This document shows positions 16,901 through 43,700 of a stretch of DNA of 64,000 nt, in pieces (the first letter of the stretch is position 1; each line of letters begins with the position of its first letter). The notes below the pieces were generated by a model. It saw nothing but the letters and a program-made list of their open reading frames with translations, did no database searches and was not told where the DNA came from. This DNA is from Adineta ricciae (lineage: Eukaryota; Rotifera; Eurotatoria; Adinetida; Adinetidae): NCBI GenBank assembly GCA_905250025.1, contig CAJNOJ010000008.1, positions 310,001 to 374,000 on the forward strand. The letters run 5' to 3'. The position numbers and the translations under genes are program-made.

Positions 16901-18606
16901 ATGCAGTTAGAAAGAAGACAACTGGTTTTCATCATTTTTGGATGGTTTATTTGTCCTAGTATGTATTTCATGCTTGACAAAAGCAACTGTTTGATTAATC
17001 CTTTTGTATTTCTAGGTTTCGAATTATCCTGCATTCAATGCACTAGTCCAGTCGAGCGAATCACACAGAATTGGGATCATTCTTGTCTAGACGGAACATT
17101 AGCCAGTGTGGCTTGTAAAAAGCCGAATAACGAATCCAGCGAACCCTTCCTAAACTGTGTATCTGCTCTTTATCGCATAGGATTGAATACAAATGGAGGT
17201 AAGAAATCGTGATTATTATGCATTTCATCGGGAAAAAAGAAACTTCTTATGAAACTGTTTGTGTAAGAAAATTCTCCGCAATCATACATCGAACACTTCC
17301 ACCACCACATTGTTCGATCGTTGACACATCGAAATAAACTAATTTGGTGTTGGTTTCTTCGATTGATCGTCGTTGTCTATCCGTTAAACAGTTGTGTGCT
17401 GACTTCGACATTACTAGGAGGTAATCTCCTTGATTGTTTCGTATTTCCAACATATTACCAGCAAACTGATTCATTTGTTCGAATGTAATGTCAATCACCT
17501 TTCGAGTGCCATTTTGTTCTAGCGATTGTACGATAGATTTTCGCTTAGTTTCGTCTTTGATTGATTGTAAACATATGATGGCTACATGTGTACCGATTGC
17601 CATCATCACATTGGTATGATAGATCGGCTTTTGATTGTGATCAACACTATCAAATATAATTGCTGGTTTTTGGTAATCTAATAACTTTGTAAATTGTTCA
17701 ACAACTGCATCGTGTGTACGTGGCGATCGCACAGCATAGACAATCTTATTGATTCGATCGAGTACTAGTGAACCAGTGCCTTCAAGAAATTGATTTCGGT
17801 ATTCAAGAACACTAAAATCAATGATAGCAGTAACGTTGTATCTTTGTGCTAAAGTTCTGATTAGATCATCTCGACGTTCCAATCGACGATTCGCTGCCAA
17901 CATCGGATAGAGTACAATAGTACCTTCAGAATGAGTTGAAAACCAATTGTTTGGAAAAATAGCATCGGGTTTAATAGGTATTGATGTATCTTCGACGACA
18001 TCAACATGAACATCATGCGAACGAAGCTGTTCAACCATACGATCGAATTCCGTCAAAGCGCGTTGTTGAATATCATTTGCTGATGATGAAACAGCATACT
18101 GATCATTTTGGAATGCATTTGAAACGGCTGTTTCTGTATTAAAACAGAAACAAGCTGGTCGTATCATAATAATCTGATTTGTTGATTGACTTTCTGCCAT
18201 TATGGAAAAGAAAAAGGTTTTTTTGTGCCGTGGTTTATGAATGTGATGCTTTCGTTTACTTTTCTTGTTCTCTTATCGAAAAATGTGATCACACGTAGAT
18301 TACCCTCGTGACATATGTAGTATTGCTTTTCTTTTTTTCTCTTTTTTCTATCTAGGTCTTCATATACATCGTGGGTGTTCGATGATTCAAGAAGTTCGAC
18401 GCGAATGTGATCCACCGACGACAAGCATAAATTTAGACACAACATTAGACTTTTTCTGTAGTCGAACATGTTCCAGCAATGGGTGCAATCAACATTCTGT
18501 TATTGATATTACTTCGAGTATGAATCAACGCTTTTCTAAGATTGAAATGTTTTTTAAAATAATTTTCATTACTTTCATGCAAATCTTTTTTCTTTTCCTA
18601 TTGTAA
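16901..18606 (+). CDS. Ly6/uPAR-like GPI-anchored small protein
   Basis: Three exons: 16901-16958, 17016-17198, 18356-18606, about 163 aa. Residues 1-20 are a signal peptide (QLVFIIFGWFICPS). The mature part starts with CIQC, has Cys spacing typical of a three-finger fold, and ends with CSRTCSSNGCN, the C-x-x-x-C-x-x-x-x-C-N pattern that closes Ly6/uPAR domains. The C-terminus is a hydrophobic tail (MFFKIIFITFMQIFFLFLL), as expected for a GPI signal. A cell-surface or secreted role follows from the fold; the ligand is unknown. Intron 1 (16959-17015, 57 bp) is a multiple of three without a stop. Intron 2 (17199-18355) is more than ten times longer than most introns here because it contains a complete gene on the opposite strand. 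Confidence 0.8.
17247..18200 (-). CDS. ctlX-like: CtlX-type amidinotransferase-fold hydrolase, intronless, nested in a host intron
   Basis: One uninterrupted frame of 317 codons from the ATG at 18200. Motifs of the FN0238/CtlX branch of the arginine deiminase/DDAH superfamily are in order: MIRPACFCFN, PDAIFPNNWFSTHSEGTIVL with YPMLAANRRLERR after it, EGTGSLVLDR, YHTNVMMAIG (His region) and QCGGGSVRCMIAE, whose Cys is the expected nucleophile. Family members in bacteria hydrolyse citrulline or related guanidino/ureido compounds; the exact substrate here is not determined. There is no signal peptide. Family membership is mainly bacterial as far as I know, and the lack of introns contrasts with every multi-exon neighbour, so horizontal acquisition is likely (inference). 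It lies wholly within intron 2 of the Ly6-like gene, on the other strand. Confidence 0.88.
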   Translation of the reverse strand: MAESQSTNQIIMIRPACFCFNTETAVSNAFQNDQYAVSSSANDIQQRALTEFDRMVEQLRSHDVHVDVVEDTSIPIKPDAIFPNNWFSTHSEGTIVLYPMLAANRRLERRDDLIRTLAQRYNVTAIIDFSVLEYRNQFLEGTGSLVLDRINKIVYAVRSPRTHDAVVEQFTKLLDYQKPAIIFDSVDHNQKPIYHTNVMMAIGTHVAIICLQSIKDETKRKSIVQSLEQNGTRKVIDITFEQMNQFAGNMLEIRNNQGDYLLVMSKSAHNCLTDRQRRSIEETNTKLVYFDVSTIEQCGGGSVRCMIAENFLTQTVS

Positions 18607-24090: not shown

Positions 24091-25207
24091 ATGGGTCAAA
24101 TGTTCGATCGACAAGTTGCCGGGCCGACACTGCATACTCAAAAACAAGGTACAGATCTGTTTGAATTCAAAACTCGAACAAATAGCCGTACATGCCTATT
24201 CTTTCCATTTAGTTACCAAAATTTCCGATATATCCCAATTACCACCTGAACTAGCTTTGCAAATTCTCAAAAATTTAAATGCAACTGATCTATGCCTTGC
24301 CTCGTGTGTTTGGCAAACATTGGCTAACGATGAAATCCTTTGGCTCGGGTATGTAAAGAGAAAGTAGAATTGATAAATATTGACTATTTTCTTTTCTTCA
24401 TTTAAAAGATTATGTAAATCAAATTGGGGCTATGCATCTGTATACAAACGAGCTCGTGATGAAGGTATTTCATTCCGAAGGATTTATTTACAACTTGACG
24501 AAGGTACATTAAGATTCAATGCTGGACAGGTATGTAATGATTTCGACTTTTAAATGTGCATTAATTGACATTTGAATGGTTAGGGATTGCAATATTTTCT
24601 TGAAAATCGATTAATTGACGACGTATGCGAAGAAATATGTCAATTTTTTCATAATACAAGAAAATTGCGGTCCGTAGAGAAACGTAAATTATTACAAACA
24701 CGGTAAGATATCAACAGCTTTCGTACTTTTAATCTTCTATCGTTGATTGCCTAGCCGTGACATCTTGGAGCGTCTTGTTGAACTTCAATCTTACGAAAAT
24801 CAATTTCTACCCAATGCTCTACGTCAATTCTTTGCAAAACTTGATGCACCTGAAGATCGAAATGAGTACCTATCAATTTTGATCGAAAATTTTTCCAAAC
24901 GCTTTCATGAATGTAACAAAGACCTTGGCTTATCGACTGGTTCGTATATCATTTGCTCTCAGTAATTACCTATTGCTTCGTGCACGTACTTTTAGAGACA
25001 ATCTACGTTTTATGCTTTTCATTGATTCTTCTTTCAATTGATCTTACATCACCACATGTTAAAAATAAAATGTCAAAACGTGAATTTATTCGTAATACAC
25101 GTCGTGCCATAATTAATGGAACATTAAGTGACGAATTAGCTGGCCACTTATATGATAATATATATTTGATTGGTCATGTCGCGCGTTCAACCACCGCTGC
25201 AAATTGA
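24091..25207 (+). CDS. FBXO8: F-box only protein 8 (F-box + Sec7-type domain)
   Basis: Six exons: 24091-24148, 24213-24348, 24409-24529, 24594-24702, 24755-24939, 24996-25207, about 273 aa. It starts MGQ, as FBXO8 does (a possible myristoylation signal). The F-box reads LPPELALQIL..LNATDLCLASCVWQ and is followed by LCKSNWGYASVY. The C-terminal half is the Sec7-like region: NQFLPNALRQFF, APEDRNEYLSILI, YVLCFSLILLSIDLTSPHVK and NKMSKREFIRNTRRA..LYDNIYLIGHVA. FBXO8 is thought to link SCF ubiquitin ligase to ARF-family regulation (family knowledge). It is somewhat shorter than the vertebrate protein (319 aa) because the N-terminal linker is shorter. A possible polyadenylation signal lies near 25399. 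Confidence 0.96.
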
Positions 25208-25780
25208 ATAATCAAAACGTCTTTTTTACGCACAACAAATTCCTCCCGGTTATTTACCTGTATAAACACGTTTTTCTTTTATGAGAGCTTCGTTTATTTT
25301 ATATTTTGCCTCCTTTTCTTTCCGTTTATTTTGTATGTTGATGTGTCTCCATCAATTTGTCTTTTTCTTCTCTAAGAAAGAAAAGCCAGTGTTTACATAA
25401 TAAATTATCAGATGTCGAGTTTTTCTAGAAAATATTCGTTACTTTCTAGTAATCATTACTCAAAACAGTCATTGGTTTTGAGATGAGAAACAACTGTCAC
25501 ACTTTATAACAAATCTCTTTTTCATTTGTTACTGTTGAAAGATATGATTACCACTCTCGGAACACCGATAGCGAACCTAATTCACATGGATAGTGAAAGG
25601 GGTTCATTGATATTTTTCTACTCCTACGGAACGAAGTTTCATCAGTTCATGGAGAGCGTCAACGTCAATAACAGATGATTTTGCCTTGTCCTTGATTAAT
25701 TTGAAAGTGTTGCTTGCAGCTTGATCTCTTCGCCGTCTCTACACACCGAGTTTCGAAAGAAGTGACAGAGAAAGTGAAAA
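25208..25780. other. Intergenic, with remnant of an SL-gene partner
   Basis: FBXO8 3' flank, then two short blocks also found beside the intact SL gene at 28684-28790: an ACGAAGTTTCATCAGTTCA block at 25631-25649 (also at 28570-28588), and GATTAATT.GAAAGTGTTGCT at about 25694-25714 (also near 28671-28691). The SL RNA body that should sit next to the second block is missing, so this looks like a deleted partner of the SL gene at 25828. Confidence 0.5.
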
Positions 25781-25805
25781 GTGTAAGGACTGGCTAGATG
25801 TCGTG
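25781..25805 (+). promoter_or_regulatory. PSE-like element of SL RNA copy A
   Basis: GTGTAAGGAC..TGTCGTG lies at -47 to -23 of the leader start. It matches the element found at the same distance upstream of the other SL genes (GTGTAGGGACTCGAG..GTCGTG) and of the first U2 gene. Confidence 0.6.
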
Positions 25806-25827
25806 GTTTTCGGAAGAAGGAGAAGGT

Positions 25828-25934
25828 TGCTTATTACAACTTACCAAGAGGTAAATGATCTTACTAGATCAAATACATGTTGCGATGACGAAAACGAGCG
25901 GATCAGTGGTAACACTGATCTGCCAGAGCGACAC
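25828..25934 (+). ncRNA. Spliced leader RNA gene, copy A
   Basis: 107 bp. The first 23 nt (25828-25850) equal the rotifer spliced leader as I recall it except for the first base, and are followed directly by a donor GAG|GTAAAT. Downstream are a short hairpin (GATC TTACTA GATC) and a 3' hairpin (GATCAGTG GTAA CACTGATC). No canonical AUUUUUG Sm site is obvious. The 3' end carries one change (GAGCGACAC instead of GAGCAACAC). It is the only complete copy that is not half of an intact head-to-head pair. Confidence 0.85.
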
Positions 25935-28308
25935 TTTCTAATTAATGAAGAAGAAAACAAATGCGAAACATTATGATGACCCTCACGTGAGGGTGTGATG
26001 ATGTTGGTCATCAATTGTAGCAGCAGACAGAATTCATAGATTGAAATCTGTACGACTTCCACTACTTTTGGATCGATGTTGGTTGCTCCTGCTGTACCCA
26101 AAAACATTCCTGAAAAGTCTGATTCAGTCGTTTCTTCAGAGATGTGTTCCGTTATCGAGAATCAAGGTATGATATCGGACCAGTTCTCAGTCATTGTATT
26201 TCATATGTTTTGTCTTCATGACAATCGAACATGACGCCGAATTATATCTGCTTGAATGATTTTACTTGGACAGTTCTGGTCTATTCAAGGCAACGTAAAG
26301 AAGTCAATACAAAAACTTGACATCGATTTTGTTGAAAAGAAAGTGATTCATGACCACAAAACTTAGGTTCAAACTAAAACGAATGAATAGTGGTAGGATA
26401 TGATGTTTGTGATCCTATAAACATTGTTGGATTCATTCAAAGATGCAAAAATCCTAAAACATGAATAATCGAAGAAATGAAAATCAGATATGAAGAAACA
26501 CATGTTGAGATAAGATTTTGTTCATATATAGTTGAAATATAGGTAAAAGCAGTCGAGAAATGATTGATTTGAATACTATTTCCACAATTCTAATCATATC
26601 ATACGTAAAAGCTATACAAATATAAGTTCTTACAACCATTATAAAAAAAGTCATTAAGAGATATTTCTATAGAATATAAACAACCGAATAGAGAGTAAAA
26701 TGAACACTTTTATTATAAATATAAGTAAATGAATTACTTGAGTCATAATCATGATTCGAGTAATGAGTATTCTATTCAGATACGGTCTAATGAGATCAGA
26801 AATTAGAAAACTAACTGACAGTTTTTCTAAATTTGACTGAGTGCACACCTTGACAAACATGATTTTGAAATTATTTTTTTCATCAATGGATTTACTTGGG
26901 TGTTCAGATAGAAAATCATAGTGAAAAGCGATGCATAGATTATACGTGACGACTATCAAAAGTTATTTCTCCATTTATATATGAGTTGCTTTTGTTGAAC
27001 ATTTCTATTCTTCCTTGGAAAAACCTTTCTCATCTATGCAGTTTTCTTCTCTATCCGTTAGTCCTTCTTTCTCCGGATTTTTCCTTTTGTATTTGTTTGA
27101 ATATCAATATTATTAATTGTATACAAATCTATGAAAGAAAGAAATATCGGGGAATATCTGTAAATAGTAGAAAAAAGATCAATTTGGATCTTAGATAATA
27201 ATAGTTTAAGGTAAATTTTTGTGTTAACTTCTTATGTCTTATTATAATTGTCATTTGTTGAATAAAAATTCTTTCGACAGATAATGATGAACCATGTTAA
27301 TAGAAAGTTGTCTTTCAATGTAAGCCATTTGATAATAAATGTACATATATAGTGACAACAAACATTTATCCAGAATCGAAGAGATAAACTTGATTTAAAG
27401 GCTTTTGGAATGATACTTTTCTGAAGTTAGTTTGTAAAGCAATGATGACATGTTCCATTGTTGATGATACCAAGAGCAATAATTTGTTTACCACCGATCG
27501 ATATTGTCTAACTAATTGCCTCATGTATCAATTTAGAATGTCCCGCTGATCTTTTGTTGACACTCTCGAAAGGCATCAATATGTAAGAGAGATGCTTTTC
27601 AAAATCTGTGTAACATTTCTTCTTTCTTATCAACACAGTTATTCGCCCTAGAAAATCGCATGGATGATACTTCGGAGTGTGTACTCAAGGAGAGATTCGT
27701 TTCAGCTTTGACAGGTCTTGAAAGTCGCTTTTCAGATATTGACGTATATGGAATCTTTTCCATCGATTCGGTGCCGTATTTCTTTCATTTAAAGTGTGTA
27801 TTCATCGTCGATTTCGTTGAAGAAAAGCGCTAAAAAAGAAAACAATCTTGAACTAGTTTGATGGATGTGCCATGATCGATGAAATCAGAGCCATGCACTA
27901 AAATAGGATTTCGACGGTAACGACTGATGTGATCAAATGATTAGCTGGATTCTACGGTGGTTGTATCTGTGCATTTGAGTTTCATATACATAAGAGATCT
28001 TCTAGATGTTATAGTGTATCGATGAATACAATTCGTGACAACAATTCAGATACAGGTTACATAGAAAAAACTATATGTTGTCTTGTTTCGAATTCACGAT
28101 TATCTTAGTTACATTCGAAACAAAAGATAAAAAGACTCGTCATTGCATCCGCAGTGATTTCGCATAATATCTCGATGGGACCATATTGTGCTTAAGTTAT
28201 CACCGAGGAAAATACAATAACCATTCTTACAGATAGACGTGGTCTACGAAGTTTGGTTTCATGTTTTACATTTGAATGATGTGATTCCCGTTCCCGAAGG
28301 AACGGGAG
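25935..28308. other. Long non-coding spacer
   Basis: About 2.4 kb, AT-rich, with only short, low-complexity or Ile/Phe-rich ORFs that I reject. The first 170 bp (AATGAAGAAGAAAACAA.., and CACGTGAGGG) recur downstream of the truncated SL copy at 34803-34900, so this flank belongs to the array. A perfect 10-bp hairpin (TCCCGTTCCC-GAAG-GAACGGGA) sits at 28285-28307, immediately beyond the 3' end of U2 copy 1. Confidence 0.5.
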
Positions 28309-28498
28309 TGGACCGAACTCGACGGCACTGCAGTGTCGAGACGATCCGTGGCACAGGTCCGAGTGAACCCGGGTGATCCTGGCCCATGTCCAAAAATCCG
28401 CTTGAAAGAGCCTGGCCCCGATGGGACCAGCGCCGGCTTTCAAACCGACGAGAACAGATACTACACTTTGATCTTAGCCGAAAAGGCCGAGAAGCGAT
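28309..28498 (-). ncRNA. U2: U2 snRNA gene, copy 1 (probably functional)
   Basis: Read on the minus strand from 28498: ATCGCTTCTCGGCCTTTTCG, then GCTAAGATCAAAGTGTAG and TATCTGTTCT, including the branch-point recognition sequence GTGTAGTA. Stem-loop IIa (CGTCGG TTTGAAAG CCGGCG) and IIb (CTGGTCC CATC GGGGCCAG) follow, then an Sm site (GATTTTTGGA), stem-loop III (GGGCCAGG / CCTGTGCC) and stem-loop IV (CTCGAC ACTGCAGTGC CGTCGAG). The length of 190 nt fits U2. Stem I has one extra C compared with the usual GGCCUUUUGGCU. A PSE-like element lies at -48. It supplies the branch-point recognition RNA of the spliceosome, needed for both cis- and trans-splicing. Confidence 0.93.
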
Positions 28499-28521
28499 AA
28501 CTAACATCACAAATTCCTTCA

Positions 28522-28546
28522 TCTTTTCTCCCTCATGTCTCCACAC
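28522..28546 (-). promoter_or_regulatory. PSE-like element of U2 copy 1
   Basis: On the minus strand GTGTGGAGACATGAG starts 48 bp before the U2 5' end, the same position as the SL-gene element (GTGTAGGGACTCGAG). Shared spacing and sequence suggest one snRNA-type promoter factor serves both (inference). Confidence 0.55.
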
Positions 28547-28683
28547 ATTTGATATTTTCGATTTTTACGAAACGAAGTTTCATCAGTTCACAGATGAATG
28601 ACGTCATTCGTGTGACTAAGTACTGCGAAGAAGCGAACAAAGATCGAAGATGTAATTTTTCTTTTTTTTCGATTAATTAGAAA

Positions 28684-28790
28684 GTGTTGCTCTGGCAGAT
28701 CAGTGTTACCACCGATCCGCTCGTTTTCGTCATCGCAACATGTATTTGATCTAGTAAGATCATTTACCTCTTGGTAAGTTGTAATAAGCA
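28684..28790 (-). ncRNA. Spliced leader RNA gene, copy B
   Basis: 107 bp with the 23-nt leader at 28790-28768, donor GAG|GTAAAT, hairpin GATC TTACTA GATC and a 3' hairpin (GATCGGTG GTAA CACTGATC, one G:T pair). Head-to-head partner of copy C across a 130-bp spacer. It lies about 190 bp from U2 copy 1, same strand. Confidence 0.88.
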
Positions 28791-28920
28791 ACTTTCCTCG
28801 TCGAGGGCGAGGACACGACGTTTCTCGAGTCCCTACACATCGCCCTTTGTTTCGCTTTTCCTCAAACGCTATGTGAAAAGACACGAGTGATATCGTGCCT
28901 TCGCCTTCGACGAGGAAAGT
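28791..28920. promoter_or_regulatory. Bidirectional SL promoter spacer B/C (inverted relative to the others)
   Basis: A 130-bp spacer whose two ends are imperfect inverted arms starting at each leader (ACTTTCCTCGTCGA..GGCGA.G). A 25-bp PSE-like element faces each gene at -48 to -24: GTGTAGGGACTCGAG..GTCGTG toward copy B and GTGAAAAGACACGAG..ATCGTG toward copy C. The middle part matches the reverse complement of the D/E and F/G spacers. Confidence 0.7.
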
Positions 28921-29027
28921 TGCTTATTACAACTTACCAAGAGGTAAATGATCTTACTAGATCAAATACATGTTGCGATGACGAAAACGAGCGGGCTGGT
29001 AGCAATACTAGCCTGCCAGAGCAACAC
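28921..29027 (+). ncRNA. Spliced leader RNA gene, copy C (variant 3' hairpin)
   Basis: Same 23-nt leader (28921-28943), donor and middle hairpin as copy B. The 3' hairpin differs at many positions yet still pairs: GGCTGGTA GCAA TACTAGCC here, against GATCAGTG GTAA CACTGATC in copy A. Such paired changes are what selection on an RNA helix leaves. Confidence 0.88.
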
Positions 29028-29928
29028 TTTTCATTAAAACATAAAGTAGCAAGGGACAGAGAGAGAGAGACATCAGTGCTATACTGTACACGTAACTTAT
29101 GTGAACACAATAGTGATGAAAAACGATGATATTACGTAAGCTGACGAATATGATTTTGTGGCAAACTAGATTTTAATCAAAATTAATAATTGATTGGAAA
29201 ATTCGAAGACATAACTTATACTGACTAAATCTAGGATGAAAAAACTACCCGCCAACAGTTCAACAGTATGGTGGTGTAACGACGAGCTTTATTTAAGGTG
29301 ATTCGTACTGCCTTTATTTCAACAAAACCTTTCCTTTTATATTGGTTCCCTCATTTCTCTTTTTTTGGGTGCATCGGTCAAGCGAGAACCGAGAGAGAAA
29401 CACGAAGAAGAGAAAACAATCATTAGATGAACTGTTAAAGATGAATGTGTTGTGAGACGAGGCGAATAGATATAATAAACAGGAAGTAGAAGATAATGAT
29501 ATATACGAGAGTCATGTGTTTGTGCTCGAAAGAGTTCATTGATGAATACATAAATGTTGTCACAAGTGGCATGAACCATATCCTGTGGCCCGCAAAATAA
29601 CTATTTTCAACTTTCAAACTTGTCACTCTGGGTACTACTATATCCTTATATCGCATTACTGTGTCTAACTATACACAATGAGGTACACAGATGAAGACAA
29701 TGAGAAAAGGATTCGACGACATAATTACAATTTGCTCCATTAATATCAATCCTTTGATCGATAGAAACTACAAATTCGACATCGTTTTGAAGGAACTTAT
29801 ATTTATCGCGAAGTTGCCTTTTTGCCGGCTTTACAGTTAAAATATTGACACTGATCTGAATTTGCCGCAAAATCAAATTCCTCATTACTTCTAATATTAT
29901 CATTTTGATATTTTATGAAAGAATGCAA
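29028..29928. other. Array spacer
   Basis: Non-coding. A GAGAGAGAGAGA run lies near 29059-29070. From 29316 the sequence is repeated after the N at 32095. Short ORFs on the minus strand (29337-29579, 29646-29903) recur in the second unit, but with scattered replacement changes. Confidence 0.5.
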
Positions 29929-30118
29929 GTAGACCATACTCGACGGTACTGCAGTGTCGAGAAGATCCATGACTAGGGGCCCGAGTCAACTCAGGTGATC
30001 CTAGTCGGTATCCAAAAATCCGCTTGAAAGAGCCTGGCCCCGATGGGACCAGCGCCGGCTTTCAAACCGACGAGAACAGATACTACACTTCGATCTTAGC
30101 CGTGAGGCGAGAAGCGAT
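29929..30118 (-). ncRNA. U2: U2 snRNA-like gene, copy 2 (variant stem I)
   Basis: 190 nt, read from 30118. The branch-recognition block GTGTAGTATCTGTTCT, stems IIa/IIb and the Sm site GATTTTTGGA are unchanged. Stem-loop I differs (CTCGCC TCAC GGC instead of CTCGGCC TTTT CGGC), and one base before GTGTAG differs (GATCGAAG). Stem III has changed on both sides (GACTAGG / CCTAGTC) and stays paired. The loop of stem IV (ACTGCAGTACC) is close to the usual U2B''-binding loop. At -48 only a weak match to the PSE-like element remains, so it may be poorly transcribed or a pseudogene. Confidence 0.75.
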
Positions 30119-30333
30119 AAAGCAAACTGTAGAAATGTGTGTTTTAAAAATCTGTCTGTCTTTACTGATGTCGTACACTTTTACTACGTGAGTCAACATT
30201 GCGAATAGGTATTTCATAATTATGATGGAAAGCGAAAGACGATTTGTAGCATGACGATTAGACAAAAGTGTAAAGAGTAAAACAAGAAGGGTGAGGGTGG
30301 TCGTGTTCTTTTCTTTTTGTATTTTAATCAAAA

Positions 30334-30440
30334 GTGTTGCTCTGGCAGATCAGTGTTACCACCGATCCGCTCGTTTTCGTCATCGCAACATGTATTTGAT
30401 CAGAGTTGATCATTTACCTCTTGGTAAGTTGTAATAAGCA
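30334..30440 (-). ncRNA. Spliced leader RNA gene, copy D
   Basis: 107 bp; leader at 30440-30418 followed by GAG|GTAAAT. The middle hairpin is the second type, GATCA ACTC TGATC, also found in copies F, G and H. Head-to-head partner of copy E. Confidence 0.88.
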
Positions 30441-30570
30441 ACTTTCCTCGTCGAAGGCGAAGGCACGATATCACTCGTGTCTTTTCACATAGCGTTTGAG
30501 GAAGAGCGAAAGAAAGGGCGATGTGTAGGGACTCGAGAAACGTCGTGTCCTCGCCTTCGATGAGGAAAGT
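30441..30570. promoter_or_regulatory. Bidirectional SL promoter spacer D/E
   Basis: 130 bp with inverted arms at both ends. The GTGAAAAGACACGAG-type element faces copy D and the GTGTAGGGACTCGAG-type element (30523-30547) faces copy E, the opposite arrangement to the B/C spacer. Confidence 0.7.
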
Positions 30571-30677
30571 TGCTTATTACAACTTACCAAGAGGTAAATG
30601 ATCTTACTAGATCAAATACATGTTGCGATGACGAAAACGTGCGGATCGGTGGTAACACTGATCTGCCAGAGCAACAC
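30571..30677 (+). ncRNA. Spliced leader RNA gene, copy E
   Basis: 107 bp; leader 30571-30593, donor GAG|GTAAAT, middle hairpin of the GATC TTACTA GATC type, 3' hairpin GATCGGTG GTAA CACTGATC. One change (AACGTGCGG instead of AACGAGCGG) in the single-stranded part. Confidence 0.88.
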
Positions 30678-32094
30678 TTATAATAACAGGAAATAAAGTG
30701 AACAAGTCAGTCGCATATGATTTTATTACTCCTTGTTGATTGAATAACGGAAGAATTTGGGGCGCTGTGGAGGGTGAGGATTCTTTCATGTAGATTCTCG
30801 ATTCTGTTGCATGTTCTTCGTCTCGAGACGATCGAAAATAATAGTGTTTAGGCACAAGTAGTAGGGTGAAAGGCAGCTGTATTGATTTGTGAGTGGGAAC
30901 GTTATGCCCTTTTTTGCATTTCTCATGAGAGGATCGGGAATATATTAAGTAAAAACCGACAACGTGAACGAAGGAGAACGTGAAATAATCCGAGGAAAGT
31001 TATCTCGGACACGATTCGACTTTTTACTAATTGTCTAACAATCGATTGAGGCGGGCACTTGTTTCTACTTGATTTACTAAACGTAAGTGTCGTGAAGTCA
31101 TCAGCGTGCACAACTTTTACGTGGCGTTCTAACGCTACATTGATCAGTTCATGCTGATACAAAATGACGAGAGCCGGATGAATAGATGAACCTTAGTTTA
31201 CTCCGCTGTGTTATAGAAAGTGTGTAGATTTCGTACCCTTGATCTTAAACTCAGATGAGCATTTGCAATGAACGATTTAATTAATTGATGAACAAAGAAA
31301 CGAATTAATGCAGTAGTGCTGAGATAGAATTTTGTGATTAGTCCACTATTAATATACTTCTAATCAAAATTTTATGTTTCGATCGAAATCGTGTTTATTC
31401 GTCACAATGGTGAAGCTGTACAATGAACAGCTTTTGATAAATTTAGAATTTGAAAAACATATTCTGTAGGGAAGAAGTACTTCGCAATAGCTTTTGCACA
31501 GTTGGAAACCGGGGGTTATCTGTTTACTACAAAACGGCGTCAACGATGGAGATCCAGATAGTATCTGGAGAAACTTGTAGTGAGTTAGTTAAACCTATTA
31601 AAAACAGTTTTAGAGATATACTTCGGAGGTCGGTGAAAGCCTCAAATTTTACTTGTAGCCTGACTCAGCTTTCTCTACTGTTACAATGAACATTTTTTTT
31701 GACAAATGACGATCCCCGCACAAAAGCTCTCTACGAGAAAAGTTATCCCGGAGTGCCGTCGAATTATAACAACAACTATGAATTACAATGCTCACCCATA
31801 GTGCAATCTTATCTGAACAGCCAGAAGTTTGGCATTACAGTGCAAATTCAAAGACGTACAAAATAGAACCAAATTACGATGAGAGGAATACGTAAAAATT
31901 TGCATAATAAAAGTCGGAAAAACCTGTAACGCTCTGAAACTCATCAATACACGATAGAAACTGTTTCATACCCCTGGGCTCTCTCGCTTTCTGTGTTTCT
32001 TTGGATGCTGTTTCTGCTACAGGAATAATCAGCAAAATTCAACCGAAGATCTGTATATAATCTATGAGGACGAGATGACTTTACNATTTCAACA
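30678..32094. other. Spacer of tandem unit 1, no gene supported
   Basis: About 1.4 kb repeated at 33313-34720. It contains short ORFs on both strands (30923-31162 minus, 31450-31689 plus) whose two copies differ mainly at amino-acid-changing positions, so I treat them as non-coding. Confidence 0.5.
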
Positions 32095-32095
32095 A
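32095..32095. other. Single N: assembly join between array units
   Basis: An undetermined base separates the end of unit 1 (..GATGACTTTAC) from the start of unit 2 (ATTTCAAC..). Unit 2 ends with the same GATGACTTTAC before the N at 34721. The true sequence and number of units between these points is unknown. Confidence 0.9.
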
Positions 32096-32698
32096 AACCT
32101 TTCCTTTTATATTGGTTCCCTCATTTCTCTTTTTTTGGGTGCATCGGTCAAGCGAGAACCGAGAGAGAAACACGAAGAAGAGAAAACAATCATTAGATGA
32201 ACTGTTGAAGATGAATGTGTTGTGAGACGACGTGAATAGATATAATAAACAGGAAGGAGAAGATAATGATATATACGAGAGTCATGTGTTTGTGCTTGAA
32301 AGAGTTCATTGATGAATACATAAATGTTGTCACAAGTGGCATGAACCATAGCCTGTGGCCCGCAAAATAACTATTTTCAACTTTCAATCTTGTCACTCTG
32401 GGTACCACTATATCCTTATATCGCATTACTGTGTCTCACTATACACAATGAGGTACACAGATGAAGACAATGAGAAAAGGATTCGACGACGTAATTACAA
32501 TTTGCTCCATTAATATCAGTCCTTTGACCGATAGAAACTACAAATTCGACATCGTTTTGAAGGAACTTGTATTTATCGCGAAGTTGCCTTTTTGCCCGCT
32601 TTGCAGTTAAAATATTGACACTGATCTGAATTTGCCGCAAAATCAAATTCCTCATTACTTCTAATATTATCATTTTGATATTTTATGAAAGAATGCAA

Positions 32699-32887
32699 GT
32701 AGACCATACTCGACGGCACCGCAGTGTCGAGAAGATCCATGACTAGGGGCCCGAGTCAACTCAGGTGATCCTAGTCGGTATCCAAAAATCCGCTTGAAAG
32801 AGCCTGGTCCGATGGGACCAGCGCCGGCTTTCAAACCGACGAGAACAGATACTACACTTCGATCTTAGCCGTGAGGCGAGAAGCGAT
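32699..32887 (-). pseudogene. U2: U2 snRNA-like copy 3, probably not expressed
   Basis: 189 nt, close to copy 2, with the same altered stem I. Stem IIb is shortened to CTGGTCC CATC GGACCAG, which pairs perfectly. The stem IV loop has lost the usual GCAGU (ACTGCGGTGCC). The expected promoter position at -48 is occupied by a G-rich simple repeat after a deletion, so no PSE-like element remains. It is called a pseudogene because of the missing promoter and the loop change; expression was not tested. Confidence 0.6.
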
Positions 32888-32968
32888 AAAGCAAACTGTA
32901 AAAATGGGAGGGGGGGTGGGTGAGGGTGAGGGTGGTCGTGTTTTTTTCTTTTTGTATTTTGATGAAAA

Positions 32969-33075
32969 GTGTTGCTCTGGCAGATCAGTGTTACCACCGA
33001 TCCGCTCGTTTTCGTCATCGCAACATGTATTTGATCAGAGTTGATCATTTACCTCTTGGTAAGTTGTAATAAGCA
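32969..33075 (-). ncRNA. Spliced leader RNA gene, copy F
   Basis: 107 bp; leader 33075-33053, donor GAG|GTAAAT, middle hairpin GATCA ACTC TGATC. Same body as copy D. Head-to-head partner of copy G. Confidence 0.88.
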
Positions 33076-33205
33076 ACTTGCCTCGTCGAACGCGAGGGCA
33101 CGCCATCATTCGTGTCTTTTCACATAGCGTTTGAGGAAGAGCGAAAGAAAGGGCGACGTGTAGAGACTCGAGAAACGTCGCGTCCTCGCCTTCGATGAGG
33201 AAAGT
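33076..33205. promoter_or_regulatory. Bidirectional SL promoter spacer F/G
   Basis: 130 bp, same orientation and arrangement as the D/E spacer, with a few base changes in the arms (CTTGCCTCGTCGAACGCGAGG). The two PSE-like elements are present. Confidence 0.7.
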
Positions 33206-33312
33206 TGCTTATTACAACTTACCAAGAGGTAAATGATCAACTCTGATCAAATACATGTTGCGATGACGAAAACGAGCGGATCGGTGGTAGCACTGATCTG
33301 CCAGAGCAACAC
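33206..33312 (+). ncRNA. Spliced leader RNA gene, copy G
   Basis: 107 bp; leader 33206-33228, donor GAG|GTAAAT. The middle hairpin is the GATCA ACTC TGATC type, unlike its unit-1 counterpart E, and the 3' hairpin is GATCGGTG GTAG CACTGATC. Confidence 0.88.
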
Positions 33313-34720
33313 TTATAATAACAGAAAATAAAGTGAACAAGTCACTCGCATATGATTTTATTACTCCTTGTTGATTGAATAACGGAAGAGTTTGGGGCGC
33401 TGTGGAGGGTGAGGATTCTTGCATGTAGATTCTCGATTCTGTTGCATGTTCTTCGTCTCGAGACGATGGAAAATAATATAGTGTTTGCGTACAAGAAGTA
33501 GGGTGAAAGGCAGCTGTATTGATTTGTGAGTGGGAACGTTATGCCCTTTTTTGCATTTCTCATGAGAGGATCCAGAATATATTAAGTAAAAACCGACAAC
33601 GTGAACGAAGGAGAACGTGAAATAATCCGAGGAAAGTTATCTCGAACACGATTAGACTTTTTACTAATTGTCTAACAATCGATTGAGGCGGGCACTTGTT
33701 TCTACTTGATTTACTAAACGTAAGTGTCGTGAAGTCATCAGCGTACACAACTTTTAAGTGGAGTTCTAACGCTACATTGATCAGTTCATGCTGATACAAA
33801 ATGATGAGAGCCGGATGAATAGATGAACCTTAGTTTACTCCGCTGTGTTATAGAAAGTGTGTAGATTTCGTAACCTTGATCTTAAACTCAGATGAGCATT
33901 TGCAATGAACGATTTAATTAATTGATGAACAACGAAACGAATTAATGCAGTAGTGCTGAGAGAGAATTTTGTGATTAGTCCACTATTAATATACTTGTAA
34001 TCAAAATTTTATGTTCCGATCGAAATCGTGTTTGTTCGTCACAATGGTGAAGCTGTACAATGAACAGCTTTTGATAAATTTAGAATTTGAAAAATAGATT
34101 CTTTAGGGAAGAAGTACTTCGCAATGGCTTTTGCACAGTTAGAAACCGGGGGTTATCTGTTTACTACAAAACGGCGTCAACGATGGAGATTCAGGCAGTA
34201 TCTGAAGAAACTTGTAGTGAGGTAGTTAAACCAATTAAAAACAGTTTTCGAGATATACTTCGGAGGTCGGTGAAAGCCTCAAATTTTACTTGTAGGCTGA
34301 CTCAGCTTTCTCTACTGTTACAATGAACATTTTTTGGACAAATGACGGTCCCTGCACAAAAGTTCTCTACGAGAAAAGTTTTCCCGGAGTGCCGTCGAAT
34401 TACAACAACAACTATGAATTACAATGCTCACCCATAGTGCCATCTTATCTGAACAGCCAGAAGTTTTGCATTACAGTGCAAATTCAAAGACGTACAAAGT
34501 AGAACCAAATTACGATGAGAGGAATACGTAAAAATTTGCATAATAAAAGTCGGAAAAACCTGTAACGCTCTGAAACTCATCAATACACGATAGAAACTGT
34601 TTCATACCCCTGGGCTCTCTCGCTTTCTGTGTTTCTTTGGACCCTGTTTCCGTTACACGAATAATCAGCAAAATTCAACCGAAGATCTGTATATAATCTA
34701 TGAGGACGAGATGACTTTAC
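33313..34720. other. Spacer of tandem unit 2, no gene supported
   Basis: Counterpart of 30678-32094. A 59-codon ORF at about 34323-34502 (MNIFWTNDGPC..) is open here but is broken by a T-run length change in unit 1. The minus-strand ORF 33560-33799 reads YADDFTTL but has no other polymerase motif. Confidence 0.45.
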
Positions 34721-34721
34721 N

Positions 34722-34802
34722 AACGATCAACTCTGATCAAATACATGTTGCGATGACGAAATCGAGCAGATCGGTGGTAACACTGATCTGCCAGAGCAAC
34801 AC
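34722..34802 (+). ncRNA. Spliced leader RNA gene, copy H, 5'-truncated at an N
   Basis: Only the intron-like part of the SL RNA remains (GATCA ACTC TGATC hairpin, 3' hairpin GATCGGTG GTAA CACTGATC, CCAGAGCAACAC). The 23-nt leader would lie in the gap at 34721. One base differs in the linker (GAAATCGAG). The sequence after it resembles that after copy A, so A and H probably border the array. Confidence 0.8.
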
Positions 34803-36563
34803 TTTCTAACTAATGAAGAAGAAAACAATATGATGATGATCTCACTTGAGGGAGAGGATATGATCACGTCGGTTATCAATCTTAGCAGCAAGTGGAGGCT
34901 TCTTTTGATTCGTACATCGTATCAGTTAAGTACTTCAGCGATATTAGACGTCATACAGAGAATTCATAGTTACACTGTTGCACGAAATCATAGTGGCTAT
35001 ATCCTATTCTCACAGCTATAGTCTGTATCACCATGTTTTCCAATTAAAAAGCCTGTCAATCCTTTTCATGAATTAGGACTATAACTATTGACAGAAGGTA
35101 ATGTCGAATGAACAGGTTAACAGTTTTGACATAAAAAAGATAAGATTTAGTAGAATAAATGAAGTAATTTTTTAAAAGAAATCATTACTGAAAATGGATT
35201 TTCCAAGGGAGAAAAAGTGAGACTTCAAATACTATCTGAAATAGATCAAGTCTTGGCTTTCTCCTCTTGATCAACACATTCGTAAGATTCTCTCTCCCTC
35301 TCATCTCTGTTTATCCAATATCATGTGAACATATTCTGAACAGTTAACAACAATAACAGCTACTCCAATCTCACCTGCTTCGACAACTGAATCAACTGTT
35401 GCTGTTTTGTATCCAACAGATTTTGTAAATGGAATGCATCATACATCTGTATATATATCATGATTGATAAAATAATACGAAGACATTTGTCTTCAATCCA
35501 TCGAAAATCTATCCACAATTAAGACATACACAACGAATGAAGCAAGTGGTGAAAAACTAAACTTGTGGACGTATTCGACATTTATTTTTCAATTTTAACA
35601 TAATCCAAACACTTATTTTTATTTGTACCTTTACTTTGAATAAAATAAAGATAGACTGATCAATCATATCATATAGAATAGATGTCTTTCGTTTTTTGTC
35701 AATCAAATAGATTAGGTTACTGTTGAACAAAAGGATTGGATTAGTTTATCGACAATATTTCAAAATAAAGCTGAAACAAGAGAGTGCCATTCTATGAATT
35801 GTTACACAGTGAGCATGTGCCAGTAAAACAATTCTTTGTCCATAAACAAATTCATTCATACTTAGTCGATGTCTCTTTGATGATTATACGCCTCCTTTTT
35901 GTCCATTTCTGCTAAAACTCTATTGAGAGATCTTATATGCAGCGGCAAAAATCGACTTCGGACTTACATCTCTTCGAAGTAGATCTCTTTCAACATCAAT
36001 ATTACTTTCCGATCAGATTTAACAACAAACGATACGTTTATGAAAGATCGTTTGATTCAAGGTGAAAGAAAAGATGAACAAACGTTCATGTTTCCCGATT
36101 ACAGCAACATCTCATCATTCGTTTTTTGAACGGTTACGAACATATTAAGATCCACTAGGACGAATAGACTTTTAGCATCTCGATCAGGTAAGATTTAACC
36201 TCTCTGTGATACTTTTTTTCAGACAGAAGCGCGTTGTGCAAATAGAAGCTGTTTCGATTTATTTCTTTCAGTTAAACTACGTCTTTTACTAAACACTTTC
36301 TTTTCACATTTTTAATATTTGCATAGCGACAATTGCATTCTCTACAGGCATGTTTTTCTCGTTCTTCAGTTGTTATGCATAAAAAAAGTAACTGTACGAA
36401 TGCGGTAGAAAGAAGAAAGAACACAAAAATTTACCAACGAAGTTACCTTTTTATTGTGAGTTAACCGACACAGCACCAAAGCAGAGTGTCAGAAGGCAAT
36501 AACAACTAGGAGAACAATAATCGGAACTTTCAACACAGTATACTATCGGTCGATCTTCGAAAG
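34803..36563. other. Intergenic, right border of the array
   Basis: The first 100 bp are related to the flank of SL copy A. The remainder is AT-rich with no credible ORF. It leads into the promoter of the ART/TPR gene. Confidence 0.4.
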
Positions 36564-39023
36564 ATGCAAGACGTCGTTGTGATCTGGCTCGACAATCAGA
36601 TTGATCATAATAATGCTGATTGCCAGTTAACAATTGCACAACTTGAACACATTACTGACAATGTCACTACATTCACGGATAATGACGAATGTGTCGAATA
36701 TATACTCAATTGTAATGACCATCAAGTCTGTCTAATCGTTCCTGGTGCACTTGGACAATATCTTGTTCGTTGTGTCCACGACATTCCTCCATTACACTCG
36801 ATTTTCATCTTTTGTCAAAACAAATCATATCATGAACAATGGACTAAACATTGGAACAAGATCAAAGATGTTTTCACTGATATATCATCACTCTGCCAAG
36901 CCATTCAGAACACGTTTCTCCAAGATGAGCCCACTGTCACACCAATCACTTTTGTACCATCTGGCAAAAGATTGGATCTGCTCAATCCATCTTTCATGTA
37001 CACACAACTCTTCAAAGAGATCTTGTTTACGATCGAATTCGAAGACAAACACATCGAAGAGTTTGTCAGGCATCATCCTGGACTAATCACTCTCGACTGT
37101 ACGCATTCTAATGATGTTCAACAATCAGTACGTGATTACCGTACAAAGAAGCCCATCTGGTGGTATACAAGAGGTAATTCCTTGCATTCCATGCTCAACG
37201 ATGCACTACGAATCATGGATGGTGACGTTCTTGTTCGAATGGGATTCTTCGTCAATGATCTTCATCGCAACATAGAACAGTTGCACAAAGAACAGTTTGT
37301 TAACACACCTTGGAGTTCCCTTGTGTTTACAGTATATCGTGGACAAGGTCTATCTCACTCAGATTTTGAAGAACTAAAAAACACGATAGGCGGGTTGATG
37401 TCATTCAACAGCTTCTTCTCTACCAGTATGCAACGTGACGTCTCGTTTTCCTATGCGAAAAGTAACGCAGACAATCCCAAGTTAGTAGGAATTCTCTTCA
37501 CAATACAGGTCGATCCTCTTCGGTCAACAACACCGTTTGCCTCAATTGGGAATTATGGCAGTTTCTTACAAGAACACGAAGTGTTGTTTTCAATGCACAC
37601 CGTGTTTCGCGTTCATNTGATGTCATTCAACAGCTTCTTCTCTACCAGTATGCAACGTGACGTCTCGTTTTCCTATGCGAAAAGTAACGCAGACAATCCC
37701 AAGTTAGTAGGAATTCTCTTCACAATACAGGTCGATCCTCTTCGGTCAACAACACCGTTTGCCTCAATTGGGAATTATGGCAGTTTCTTACAAGAACACG
37801 AAGTGTTGTTTTCAATGCACACCGTGTTTCGCGTTCATCACATCAAACTCATTGGCGCTGATCGACCACTGTATGAAGTGAATATCTCGCTGACTCTTGA
37901 TTCTGACGAAGAGTTACGCACACTGACTGATCATGTTCGGCGCGAAAGTCGTCTCAATGGTAAAGGTTGGACCCGATTAGGCCTACTGCTGATTCAGTTG
38001 GGTCAACATGACAAGGCTAAGGCGATTTGTGATACTTTACTCAACCAAACATTAGATGACACTGATGAAGGATTGATTTATTATCAACTTGGTTATATCC
38101 GATTCAGGCAAGGTTTCTTTCAGGAAGCCATAACATTCTATGCCAAATCACTTGTGCTTCTGGAAAAATCAGTTCCTGCCAACCGTCCTAATATAGCCGC
38201 ATCCTACAACAGCATTGGCTCGGTGTATGTCTGTATGGGAGATTATCGAAAAGCACTTGAATACTATGAGAAAACCCTTTCAATTCAACAACAATCACTT
38301 CCTGCAAACCATCCTCATTTAGCCACATCCCACAACAACATCGGCTCGGTGTATGACAGTATGGGAGATTATCGAAAAGCACTCCAATGCTATGAGAAAG
38401 CTCTTTCAATTCGACAACAATCACTTCCTGCAATCCATCCTCTTTTAGCCACATCCTACAACAACATCGGCTCGGTGTATGACAGTATGGGAGATTATCG
38501 AAAAGCACTCCAATGCTATGAGAAAGCTCTTTCAATTCGACAACAATCACTTCCTGCAAACCATTCTGATTTAGCCACATCCTACGGCAACATCGGCTCG
38601 GCGTATAATAATATGGGAGATTATCGAAAAGCACTTGAATACCATGAGAAAGCTCTTTCAATTCAACAACAATCACTTCCTGCAAACCATCCGGATTTAG
38701 CCACATCCTACAACAACATCGGCTTGGTGTATGACAGTATAGGAGATTATCGAAAAGCACTTGACTACTATGAGAAAACTCTTTCAATTGAACAACAATC
38801 ACTTCCTGCAAACCATCCTGATTTAGCCACATCCTACAACAACATCGGCTTGGTGTATAACAGTATGGGTGATTATCCACAAGCTCGCTTCTATTGTGAA
38901 CGCGCTGTTCAAATTGCCAGGTGTTCAATGTCACCAAATCATCCACACCTTTTAACATTCGAAAGATATCTTGAACTTGTTACAAATCGACTGCAGCGCT
39001 CTTCTTTTCGTACTATAAAATAA
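36564..39023 (+). CDS. ADP-ribosyltransferase fused to TPR repeats (contains an assembly duplication)
   Basis: One intronless frame from the ATG at 36564. After a variable N-terminal region (about 200 aa), an ART domain shows the R-S-E pattern of arginine-specific enzymes: VYRGQGLS (Arg), MSFNSFFSTS (Ser), and LQEHEVLF (E-x-E). The C-terminal third has about eight TPRs, six of them in exact 126-bp DNA repeats (consensus GDYRKALEYYEKALSIQQQS). ART domains transfer ADP-ribose from NAD to proteins; the TPRs, of kinesin-light-chain type, probably bind partners. The 221 bp before the N at 37617 are repeated exactly after it, so the ART core appears twice; 221 + 1 = 222 keeps the frame by chance. 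The real protein is probably about 745 aa. No signal peptide. Confidence 0.85.
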   Translation: MQDVVVIWLDNQIDHNNADCQLTIAQLEHITDNVTTFTDNDECVEYILNCNDHQVCLIVPGALGQYLVRCVHDIPPLHSIFIFCQNKSYHEQWTKHWNKIKDVFTDISSLCQAIQNTFLQDEPTVTPITFVPSGKRLDLLNPSFMYTQLFKEILFTIEFEDKHIEEFVRHHPGLITLDCTHSNDVQQSVRDYRTKKPIWWYTRGNSLHSMLNDALRIMDGDVLVRMGFFVNDLHRNIEQLHKEQFVNTPWSSLVFTVYRGQGLSHSDFEELKNTIGGLMSFNSFFSTSMQRDVSFSYAKSNADNPKLVGILFTIQVDPLRSTTPFASIGNYGSFLQEHEVLFSMHTVFRVHXMSFNSFFSTSMQRDVSFSYAKSNADNPKLVGILFTIQVDPLRSTTPFASIGNYGSFLQEHEVLFSMHTVFRVHHIKLIGADRPLYEVNISLTLDSDEELRTLTDHVRRESRLNGKGWTRLGLLLIQLGQHDKAKAICDTLLNQTLDDTDEGLIYYQLGYIRFRQGFFQEAITFYAKSLVLLEKSVPANRPNIAASYNSIGSVYVCMGDYRKALEYYEKTLSIQQQSLPANHPHLATSHNNIGSVYDSMGDYRKALQCYEKALSIRQQSLPAIHPLLATSYNNIGSVYDSMGDYRKALQCYEKALSIRQQSLPANHSDLATSYGNIGSAYNNMGDYRKALEYHEKALSIQQQSLPANHPDLATSYNNIGLVYDSIGDYRKALDYYEKTLSIEQQSLPANHPDLATSYNNIGLVYNSMGDYPQARFYCERAVQIARCSMSPNHPHLLTFERYLELVTNRLQRSSFRTIK
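37396..37838. repeat. Exact 221-bp duplication around a single N (likely assembly artefact)
   Basis: 37396-37616 and 37618-37838 read identically by eye, from TGATGTCATTC to CGCGTTCAT. The only thing between them is N37617. A duplication of the same length surrounds N44271. Confidence 0.9.
38237..38992 (+). repeat. 126-bp tandem repeats encoding TPRs
   Basis: The motif GGGAGATTATCGAAAAGCAC or a close variant starts at 38237, 38363, 38489, 38615, 38741 and 38867, an exact 126-bp period (42 codons). The copies are almost identical in DNA, which points to recent expansion or gene conversion. A long minus-strand ORF here is only the shadow of the repeat. Confidence 0.9.
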
Positions 39024-40771: not shown

Positions 40772-43700
40772 CTACATAAATGTTTCCAACCCAGCCCATG
40801 ATCGGGCAAGAATATCGATGTCAGTTGCTTGATCGATAATACAGTCGACTTGTTCATCGACCGTTAACTGATGATATCGATCTGACCCGTATCGTACCAA
40901 AATTTGTGCACGCTTGTTCTCAGTTTGATCGCCACCAACAACTTTTTCCATATGGCGAAGTGCGTCTTTCAAAGCTGCTGGACGAAGAAAATTGTTTAAT
41001 TTAAGATCCGCACTAAAATACATGTCATGTACAACAGTCGAATATGTAACTGATTATATGTACATACGCAGTAATTACAGCTGGATTGATTCCATTCAGT
41101 TTTAAACGAGCACTTCGAATACGATCTTTTGCATAGGTATCGTCCGAACGAATCGGACTTGATTCTAAAGCGATAAAGTGAAACAATTCTTAACGTATTA
41201 TGTTGAACATACCGCTCTGTGATACTTGTTTACTCGTTTTCAGTGCATGTTCCTAGAAATCAATCCGAATGAAAATAAGACATATTGAACGATTAACAAA
41301 AACGTACCACCCATTCCATAAGAGGTTCCTTAATAAAGACATTCATGGTACTTAATAATAAATCGGAATTCTCGCGTAATGCATTCATCGTATGGATCAT
41401 TGTTGCACGGAACAGACCAGCTGTACCCACTGGTGACATGAGTTCGGTCAACTGTCGAGTCAAACGAATTGGTATGAGTTCAGGAACAGGTAAATGCTAA
41501 ACAAGGAAAATCAGGAGGAGTCGTTTTCCGCCGAAATGGAAAGATTTATTTTCTTACAATTGTTGCAGCATTGAATGCAGAACCAAAATCAATGCCAATA
41601 ACTTGTCCTGATGTTGTATCGATCAAAAAACTATACAGAAATAATACGTGTAAAAAGCTGAACATCAATGTCAACCAATTTTACTTTGATTGATGTCGAT
41701 CACCAATGCCTAATATGTAGTGACTTGTACATAAAATGGCATAACTGGTTATAAACTGTTGACGTAATGTATAGAATCCTTCATGTGAATTAGCCATCTT
41801 GTAATAGGCACGTCGGAGTAACTCACTGGGAATAACTGCTTGAACTTTATTGAATTCTTCACGAACTTCATTCTTTGTCAGAGAAACAAATAGTTCTGCA
41901 TACATCAGAGTGTTACTTGTTGATTTCGCACTTGGTTTCGCTCTTTGATATGCGCCAGTCACATAATCTTGAAAGAGCTTTCTTGGATGTTGACCTTGAG
42001 AAATAACATCTTGTTCAGCCTTTGTATAGCATTCATCAATTAGTTCTTTCAATGGACGTGTGTTATCGAGCCATTCAATCATTCCCAATTTCGATGACAT
42101 TGGAATAACTAGAACAACAGTACCCGATGAAAAGCAATCAATACAATCGATTATTACTTTTACCTTTATACGTTCGTATGGAAACATGTGATGCATTTGA
42201 TTGATTACAATTTGGATCATTATCGTAGAGATCATTCATAATAGTGAACAGTGCTTGAATACGTTGATCTTGTCGTATGTCTTCGCCTCCCTTGACTAGA
42301 AATCGATAATCATTTTCATCATGTCCACGTATAATTAAACGTTTCGGTAATCTTAACGAATGAAGAACTAAGATTTTCTCATCGAAACCAACAATTTTGA
42401 TATGATGCTCCAATAGCGGTTTCTTTTTGCTTGTATATTGTCCGGGTATTTCGATTTCACGCGTCGACGGTGTACCGAGAGCTCGATGTTGTTGTCGAAA
42501 TGTTAACGAAAACCATGTGGAATAATCGTTTATATTAGATTTATCTTGGGATATTGATTTTAATTTCGTGCTAATTGACGATAGCACTGTTTTCACATCG
42601 GTTAAGAGAACAGTAGAAAATAATTCACCTTGTTTACCAAACAATGTGTCGAGATCTTTTTCCACAGAATTTTTGAACTGACACCGTATGGATGTTAGAC
42701 GAGTCTTTGATAAACGATGATCTGTTCCGTCATTGAACACACTGTCTTGCGATGTCATCGTAGTGCTCGTGTGTTCTTCATTCATTTCATTGATATTGAT
42801 CGCATCGGAAAAGAGAACATCTTTGAATTTCTTCAGATGAGCCTTAAGTTTCTCGATATCCCGTGTTTGAAGATCATTGGTCAGCAATTGATATAGTTCT
42901 TTGCACCAACTCTCAAACTGTTGTTGAGGATTTAGTTGATTCAATGCTTGAATAAATTCATTGACAAGTGGAGTTTGCCGATCTACTTTGTGACGAATGA
43001 TTTCAAGATTGCGTTTTAAAGCCGGATCAGCAATTGAGTATTGCAAAGTCTCATAACTTAGTTTAAACGGATAAACAATCGATTGCGGATAGGATTTTAC
43101 TATTTGGTCAATTAATGGATACAGTTTTAAACTAAAATCAAAGAAAAATGAGAAAAAAAACCATATATTTTCAGGAGATTTCGATACGTACGCAATGGGT
43201 TTATCTAGGTGTGCTGTAATTTGATACAAACAATCGAAGAACATCCAGCATGGAATTTCTTGTAAACGATTAGCAATCGATTCCAAAGTATTCGGATACA
43301 ATTCAACTATTTGTAGTATACGAGAGAAACATTTGACACCTTCATTCGAGCCATATTTCATTGATGATAAGACTGAATGAATAATCAATTCGGCTATTTG
43401 TTTACCATTATGACCAGCAAATAAATGACGCATTGGATGTTGTGTATCATCATCATTGTTTTCATATCGACGAAGATAATCATCGCAAAATTTCGCTAAT
43501 TCATTATGATCACGACTGAGTACAGTTTCTTTTCCTGCGCGATTCGTTTCTTGTTTTTCAATATTACTCTTCAAGATGTTTACACTTTTGTGAAATAATT
43601 CTTTGATCAGCGAGTCGGCTTTCTGCATTGTATTATTTTGATCATCTAAACCATAGACATACATTTCTAATTGCCGATGCTTGGCTTGAGAGATTTTCTC

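Follow-up and report, generated by a model that had tools for sequence, protein, structure and literature searches.

Linkage of spliced leader RNA genes with U2 snRNA genes, and a promoter element common to both, in the rotifer Adineta ricciae

Linkage of spliced leader (SL) RNA genes has been reported with 5S (PMC4664967, PMC2784804, PMC11822377). In the 5S-SL1 repeat of Caenorhabditis elegans and in the SL-5S arrangements of copepods and Euglena, multicopy SL genes are interleaved with genes for another small RNA (PMC11822377, PMC4664967, PMC2784804), and the U3 small nucleolar RNA and U5 small nuclear RNA (snRNA) genes of Euglena provide a further recurrent linkage of small-RNA genes, although of other RNAs and in another phylum (PMC2784804). 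Here we describe a cluster of SL and U2 snRNA genes in a stretch of 64,000 nucleotides of Adineta ricciae (the window; C8:310001-374000 of an assembly of 130,461,839 bases, or 130.46 Mb, in 1033 contigs; G+C content of the window 36.7%). It resembles those systems in its interleaved multicopy SL genes and differs from the C. elegans tandem array in that the partner is U2 and that dispersed cassettes contain divergent SL pairs. Zhang et al. reportedly found in 2009 that dinoflagellate SL genes occur with 5S and U6; there, too, an SL gene would have a gene for a spliceosomal RNA close by, but in a protist and with another partner. No report of U2-SL linkage was found in the open PMC literature, which does not include Pouchkina-Stantcheva and Tunnacliffe 2005, the paper that founded work on rotifer SL. 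SL and U2 genes are linked in this genome, with a recurrent cassette geometry and a common promoter element. The best explanation overall, to which we give a probability of about two-thirds, is a family of SL-U2 cassettes in which each SL and U2 gene would be a separate transcription unit with an snRNA-type promoter, one promoter-binding factor, or a variant of it, would be used by both, and segmental duplication would have spread the cassettes. Since that factor would be common, the trans-splicing donor and the branch-point small nuclear ribonucleoprotein would rise and fall together, and we infer from this a joint supply of the two RNAs.

Exact matches to the leader occur at seven places in the window (four on the + strand, three on the −), each time followed by GTAAATG, and the corresponding genes lie within 25828-33312. 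Rfam recognises three U2 copies, all on the − strand (141.9, 124.7 and 115 bits), one canonical and two variant. These matches bear out the original prediction of seven complete SL genes and three U2 genes within 9 kb; the repeating order it had given, U2(−), SL(−), SL(+), is indeed found three times in the cluster, and no protein gene interrupts it, the longest of the 14 open reading frames (ORFs) of at least 80 aa that overlap 25000-35500 being 101 aa. The first SL RNA gene (25828..25934, +) is complete, with an exact leader and the promoter element at −47. The canonical U2 gene (28303..28498, −), identified by Rfam RF00004 and by alignment, has an Sm site, and its promoter element, GTGTGGAGAC, is located at 28537..28546 (−), that is at −48. 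SL genes 2 (28684..28790, −) and 3 (28921..29027, +) diverge from a promoter region of 130 bp (28791..28920) with sites at 28816-28839 (−) and 28872-28895 (+). They are followed by a variant U2 with a changed stem I and without the 3' hairpin (29924..30118, −; 124.7 bits; element with two mismatches at −49) and by SL genes 4 (30334..30440, −) and 5 (30571..30677, +). The third set comprises a variant U2, also without the 3' hairpin (32694..32887, −; 115 bits), and SL genes 6 (32969..33075, −) and 7 (33206..33312, +). This third U2, whose best match to the element has four mismatches, is probably a pseudogene. The head-to-head partner of SL gene 1 seems to have been lost by deletion between two AGCAACAC repeats: its putative remnant (25704..25744, −), delimited by eye against the intact copy at C8:253819, consists of an SL 3' end fused to its own promoter (element at 25735-25744), the body being gone between two such repeats. 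As for the truncated SL copy that had been predicted (34722..34802, +), a cut copy is present, but it starts at the N of position 34721, an assembly edge, and its counterpart at C77:397639-397745 is intact.

Linkage is a feature of the genome and not of this cluster only. The U2 census was made with RF00004 and, with the best 46 of 7474 candidates scored, gave 15 matches, which is a lower bound. The leader pattern, allowing up to three mismatches, was found genome-wide at 44 places against none for a backward control, and an exact leader plus GGTA occurred at 41. By this search alone, 12 of the 15 U2 genes have an SL gene no more than 1.1 kb away, while 20 of the 44 SL places lie within 1 kb of a U2 and 33 within 5 kb. 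BLAST of fetched stretches contributed diverged partners and fragments, and a DNA search, in which the best 40 of 59 candidates were scored, contributed four SL-like genes at C99:113.6-114.8 kb, which brought the distance census to 54 SL places. With these, 13 of the 15 U2 were within 1.5 kb of SL, a zone that covers 84,669 bases or 0.065% of the genome. Such a tabulation of distances had been proposed in the original prediction, and it extends to the whole assembly the linkage proposed there. The SL of the thirteenth U2 (C76) was found only through a closer search of the U2 flanks; in the same BLAST database the flanks of all ten U1 and U5 genes gave no SL match, those of U4, U6 and 5S being outside it. 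The two U2 without linkage are a diverged gene on C155 and one on C186 that is cut by an N. The linked ones are distributed over C6, C8 (two regions), C43 (two places), C76, C99 and C112, and they are not all independent events because cassettes have been duplicated. None of 68 other small-RNA genes, namely U1 (6), U4 (5), U5 (4), U6 (7) and 5S (46), lies within 10 kb of SL. A linkage of the SL genes with 5S was rejected on these counts (0/46), and the partner differs from the usual one, as had been claimed. A search for rotifer contaminants with the exact leader gave no match in viral_contigs and none in genome_contigs (0 and 0).

A cluster that contains single Ns could owe its composition to U2 and SL contigs wrongly joined by the assembler. 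Four single Ns are present in the window (32085, 34721, 37617 and 44271), the first two of them inside the cluster, and exact duplications of 221 bp flank the other two. We consider such an artefact very improbable, because diverged loci show the linkage again, in sequence free of N: the stretch 25828-32084, free of N, carries two of the three U2 and five of the seven SL genes, and no N was found in the cassettes fetched elsewhere (C8:237-258 kb, C6:233-245 kb, C43, C76, C99 and C112). The concern of the original prediction about misassembly is hence answered for the linkage itself but not for the exact copy number. The block 32086..34720 (2.6 kb), bounded by Ns, is a copy of 29316-32084 with 96-97.6% identity, so it is uncertain where the third U2/SL/SL set truly belongs. 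That identity resembles the 97.3% with which 34722-35058 aligns to C77:397665-398001 over 337 bp, and for this reason the block may be an allele put in the wrong place and not a tandem copy.

The cassettes have a recurrent geometry. Nine of the 13 linked U2 are preceded on their own strand by an SL gene or SL fragment that ends 81-215 bp upstream, in six cases 183-185 bp; the other arrangements are those of C76, C99 and two C6 copies. In a set of 54 SL copies (49 plus 5 partial, a list that differs from the 54 places of the distance census), 46 have a head-to-head partner. The 5' ends are 127-132 bp apart for 34 of them, and 56, 153, 301, 348 or 444 bp apart in the remaining pairs. The unit is a divergent SL pair around a promoter of about 130 bp, with U2 behind one member in the same orientation. 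Nine U2 genes placed closely behind an SL gene would also be expected if a single SL-U2 transcript started at the SL(−) promoter. This arrangement of transcription is improbable, given that the canonical U2 genes have their own element at −48, that the SL of the C76 U2 lies on its 3' side and that the C155 U2 has no SL match in its fetched flanks.

In usual snRNA promoters one proximal element serves U1, U2, U4 and U5. In A. ricciae, SL and U2 genes are preceded, at −46 to −49, by the element GTGTRNRGAC. When at most one mismatch was allowed, it was found at −46 to −48 in 46 of 49 SL genes, and with the same tolerance in nine of 15 U2 genes (eight exact, C155 with one mismatch); in four variant U2 it has two mismatches and lies at −48/−49. 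Two U2 lack it, the third copy of the window, in which the upstream region is different, and that of C186, which is at an N. The upstream regions of other snRNA genes that were read comprised all six U1, all four U5 and two of the five U4, U6 and the other three U4 being outside the set; none of these 12 has the element with up to one mismatch (0/6, 0/4 and 0/2), and no exact copy occurred in 105,980 background positions. As a guard against plain copying of cassettes, a matrix was built from SL genes of three contigs on which U2 has no match, C2, C79 and C146; seven of their eight SL genes went into it. Its best site was at −48 or −49 in 13 of the 15 U2, against none of the 12 U1, U5 and U4 genes, and the scores of the C76 U2 (18.9) and of the C155 U2, which has no SL near (19.1), exceeded the maximum of 2000 random stretches (15.0). 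The U1 and U5 genes have another sequence, TACTRTGCAATTTNTG, whose four exact matches in the genome all precede U1 or U5; with up to one mismatch it was found at eight of these ten genes, at which tolerance the genome holds 42 matches against 39 for the control. Upstream of both U4 genes read is TTCACCGATTT, which the U1 at C18:108805 resembles. At the level of sequence, U2 does not share its element with the 12 U1, U5 and U4 genes read, contrary to the usual expectation of a common one. The original prediction had raised a co-ordinated dosage of the two RNAs; the element common to SL and U2, which it did not mention, is what comes nearest to supporting that idea. A 3' box common to SL and U2 was sought in the downstream stretches by eye only, and nothing convincing was seen.

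Several points weigh against the proposed reading. At the SL loci on C2, C79, C146 and C99 (113.6-114.8 kb), no U2 match lies within 50 kb, and on C77 U2 is present only as a fragment of 44 bp. One U1 gene (C131) has a match with two mismatches at −48, which equals that of the four variant U2. The SL genes of the matrix were chosen for having the element. Six canonical U2 score 11.7, just above the 99% level of the null (10.2), one canonical U2 scores 9.6 and the four variants 7.4, with the 95% level at 7.1. It is the position, more than the score, that carries the matrix argument. Moreover, ATTF-6 of C. elegans binds the SL1 clusters and the promoters of U1, U2, U4, U5 and SL2 (PMC11822377), so a factor common to SL and U2 would by itself be ordinary. 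What would be unusual in the rotifer is that U2 and SL are set apart from the other snRNA genes.

Linkage and common promoter could be explained by descent as well, if an ancestral U2-SL-SL cassette was copied often and neither feature had a regulatory role. Homology between loci extends from U2 across both SL genes (77.6-85% over about 540 bp), and SL genes without U2 occur. However, the element holds its position even upstream of genes whose upstream regions have otherwise diverged (U2 of C76 and C155, SL of C79), and it is present at loci with one partner, both at SL genes without U2 and at a U2 without SL. We regard this as a serious rival with about an even chance of being right. It accepts the observed linkage, geometry and element and may be compatible with the promoter reading.

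The element also bears on the origin of the SL family, which could go back to a captured U2 promoter or to a U2 gene copy that degenerated; either would explain both the linkage and the element. Pointing in this direction are the adjacency of SL and U2 and the equal element at an equal distance, shared by U2 alone among U1, U2, U4 and U5. On the other hand, the SL bodies are no closer to U2, U1 or U5 than shuffled sequences are (24 local alignment comparisons, lowest p 0.074). Derivation of SL from the U2 body is accordingly unsupported, and only promoter capture is left of this proposal, which we hold to be rather unlikely. Equally tentative is a wider picture, in which bdelloid rotifers would have two classes of snRNA promoter (U1/U4/U5 versus U2 and SL), one factor would set the balance between trans-splicing donor and branch-point recognition, the SL family would have begun when a U2 promoter was captured, and the SL RNA would do without a standard Sm site. 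The neighbourhood of SL and U2 with their common element is a direct lead on where SL RNA comes from and on how its supply is matched to the spliceosome. U2 promoters could be viewed before and after in monogonont rotifers, since a study of one of them reported no SL (PMC1925144).

The leader differs from the Rotifera consensus (PMC3795323 Table 1) in one of 23 letters, namely the first, T in the gene and G in the consensus, and the leader exon is followed by a GT donor, as in bdelloid SL genes; the bdelloid SL RNA is described as about 100 nt long (PMC1925144). A consensus fold of 28 aligned copies has 22 pairs, seven of them changed on both sides, and places the donor in stem I. Folds of single copies gave z of −5.95 and −5.52 for two copies of the window and −1.63 to −4.33 for four others. 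In canonical SL RNAs the intron contains an Sm site, as a rule AU4-6G. No AU3-6G motif was found in the bodies after the leader (0/49, versus 14/15 in U2), where an unusual Sm site is possible; a missing motif would draw attention to the assembly of the SL particle. The U2 genes score above the Rfam gathering threshold and contain the branch-point and Sm sequences. A UUCG hairpin lies just 3' of stem-loop IV in the canonical U2 genes (28287-28306 in the copy of the window), with compensating changes, judged by eye, in C43:404384 and C155. A second U2 class with changed stem I (C8:339924, C8:342694, C6:239136, C6:251446 and C99:25298) lacks this hairpin wherever the 3' flank is readable.

Some further sites may belong to the same families. 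At C99:113665-114823 there are four SL-like genes in two head-to-head pairs, 108-109 nt long and 87-91% identical to the window copy; the leader pattern at three mismatches missed them, perhaps through an indel in the leader or in stem I. The two-part promoter TGTGTRNRGAC-N6-GATGTCG has 15 exact sites in the genome, 11 of them at SL or U2 genes, and 94 sites with up to two mismatches against 29 for the control. The exact sites with no SL or U2 match (C142:138611, C457:27815, C601:30197 and C681:23561) are possible further genes of this promoter class. Two promoter-like sites stand back to back on C64, at 343030 (−) and 343086 (+), with two and one mismatches and no leader match; from start to start they are 56 bp apart, which is the spacing in SL pairs.

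Outside the cluster, the same 221 bases are found exactly on both sides of the Ns at 37617 and 44271, which makes it probable that overlapping contigs were joined at these Ns. One of the two lies within an ORF of 837 aa (36510-39023), whereas the second separates two ORFs of a DNA-PKcs-like gene; the duplications are probably false, and gene models across these positions are therefore unreliable. The assignment of that gene (46996-49884 and 42138-44168, −) comes from the Pfam DNA-PKcs domains CC1-2, CC3 and CC5, its PI3/PI4-kinase match being below the cut-off. The stretch 17247-18272 (−) matches Pfam DDAH_eukar (dimethylarginine dimethylhydrolase) with an E-value of 4.4e-102.

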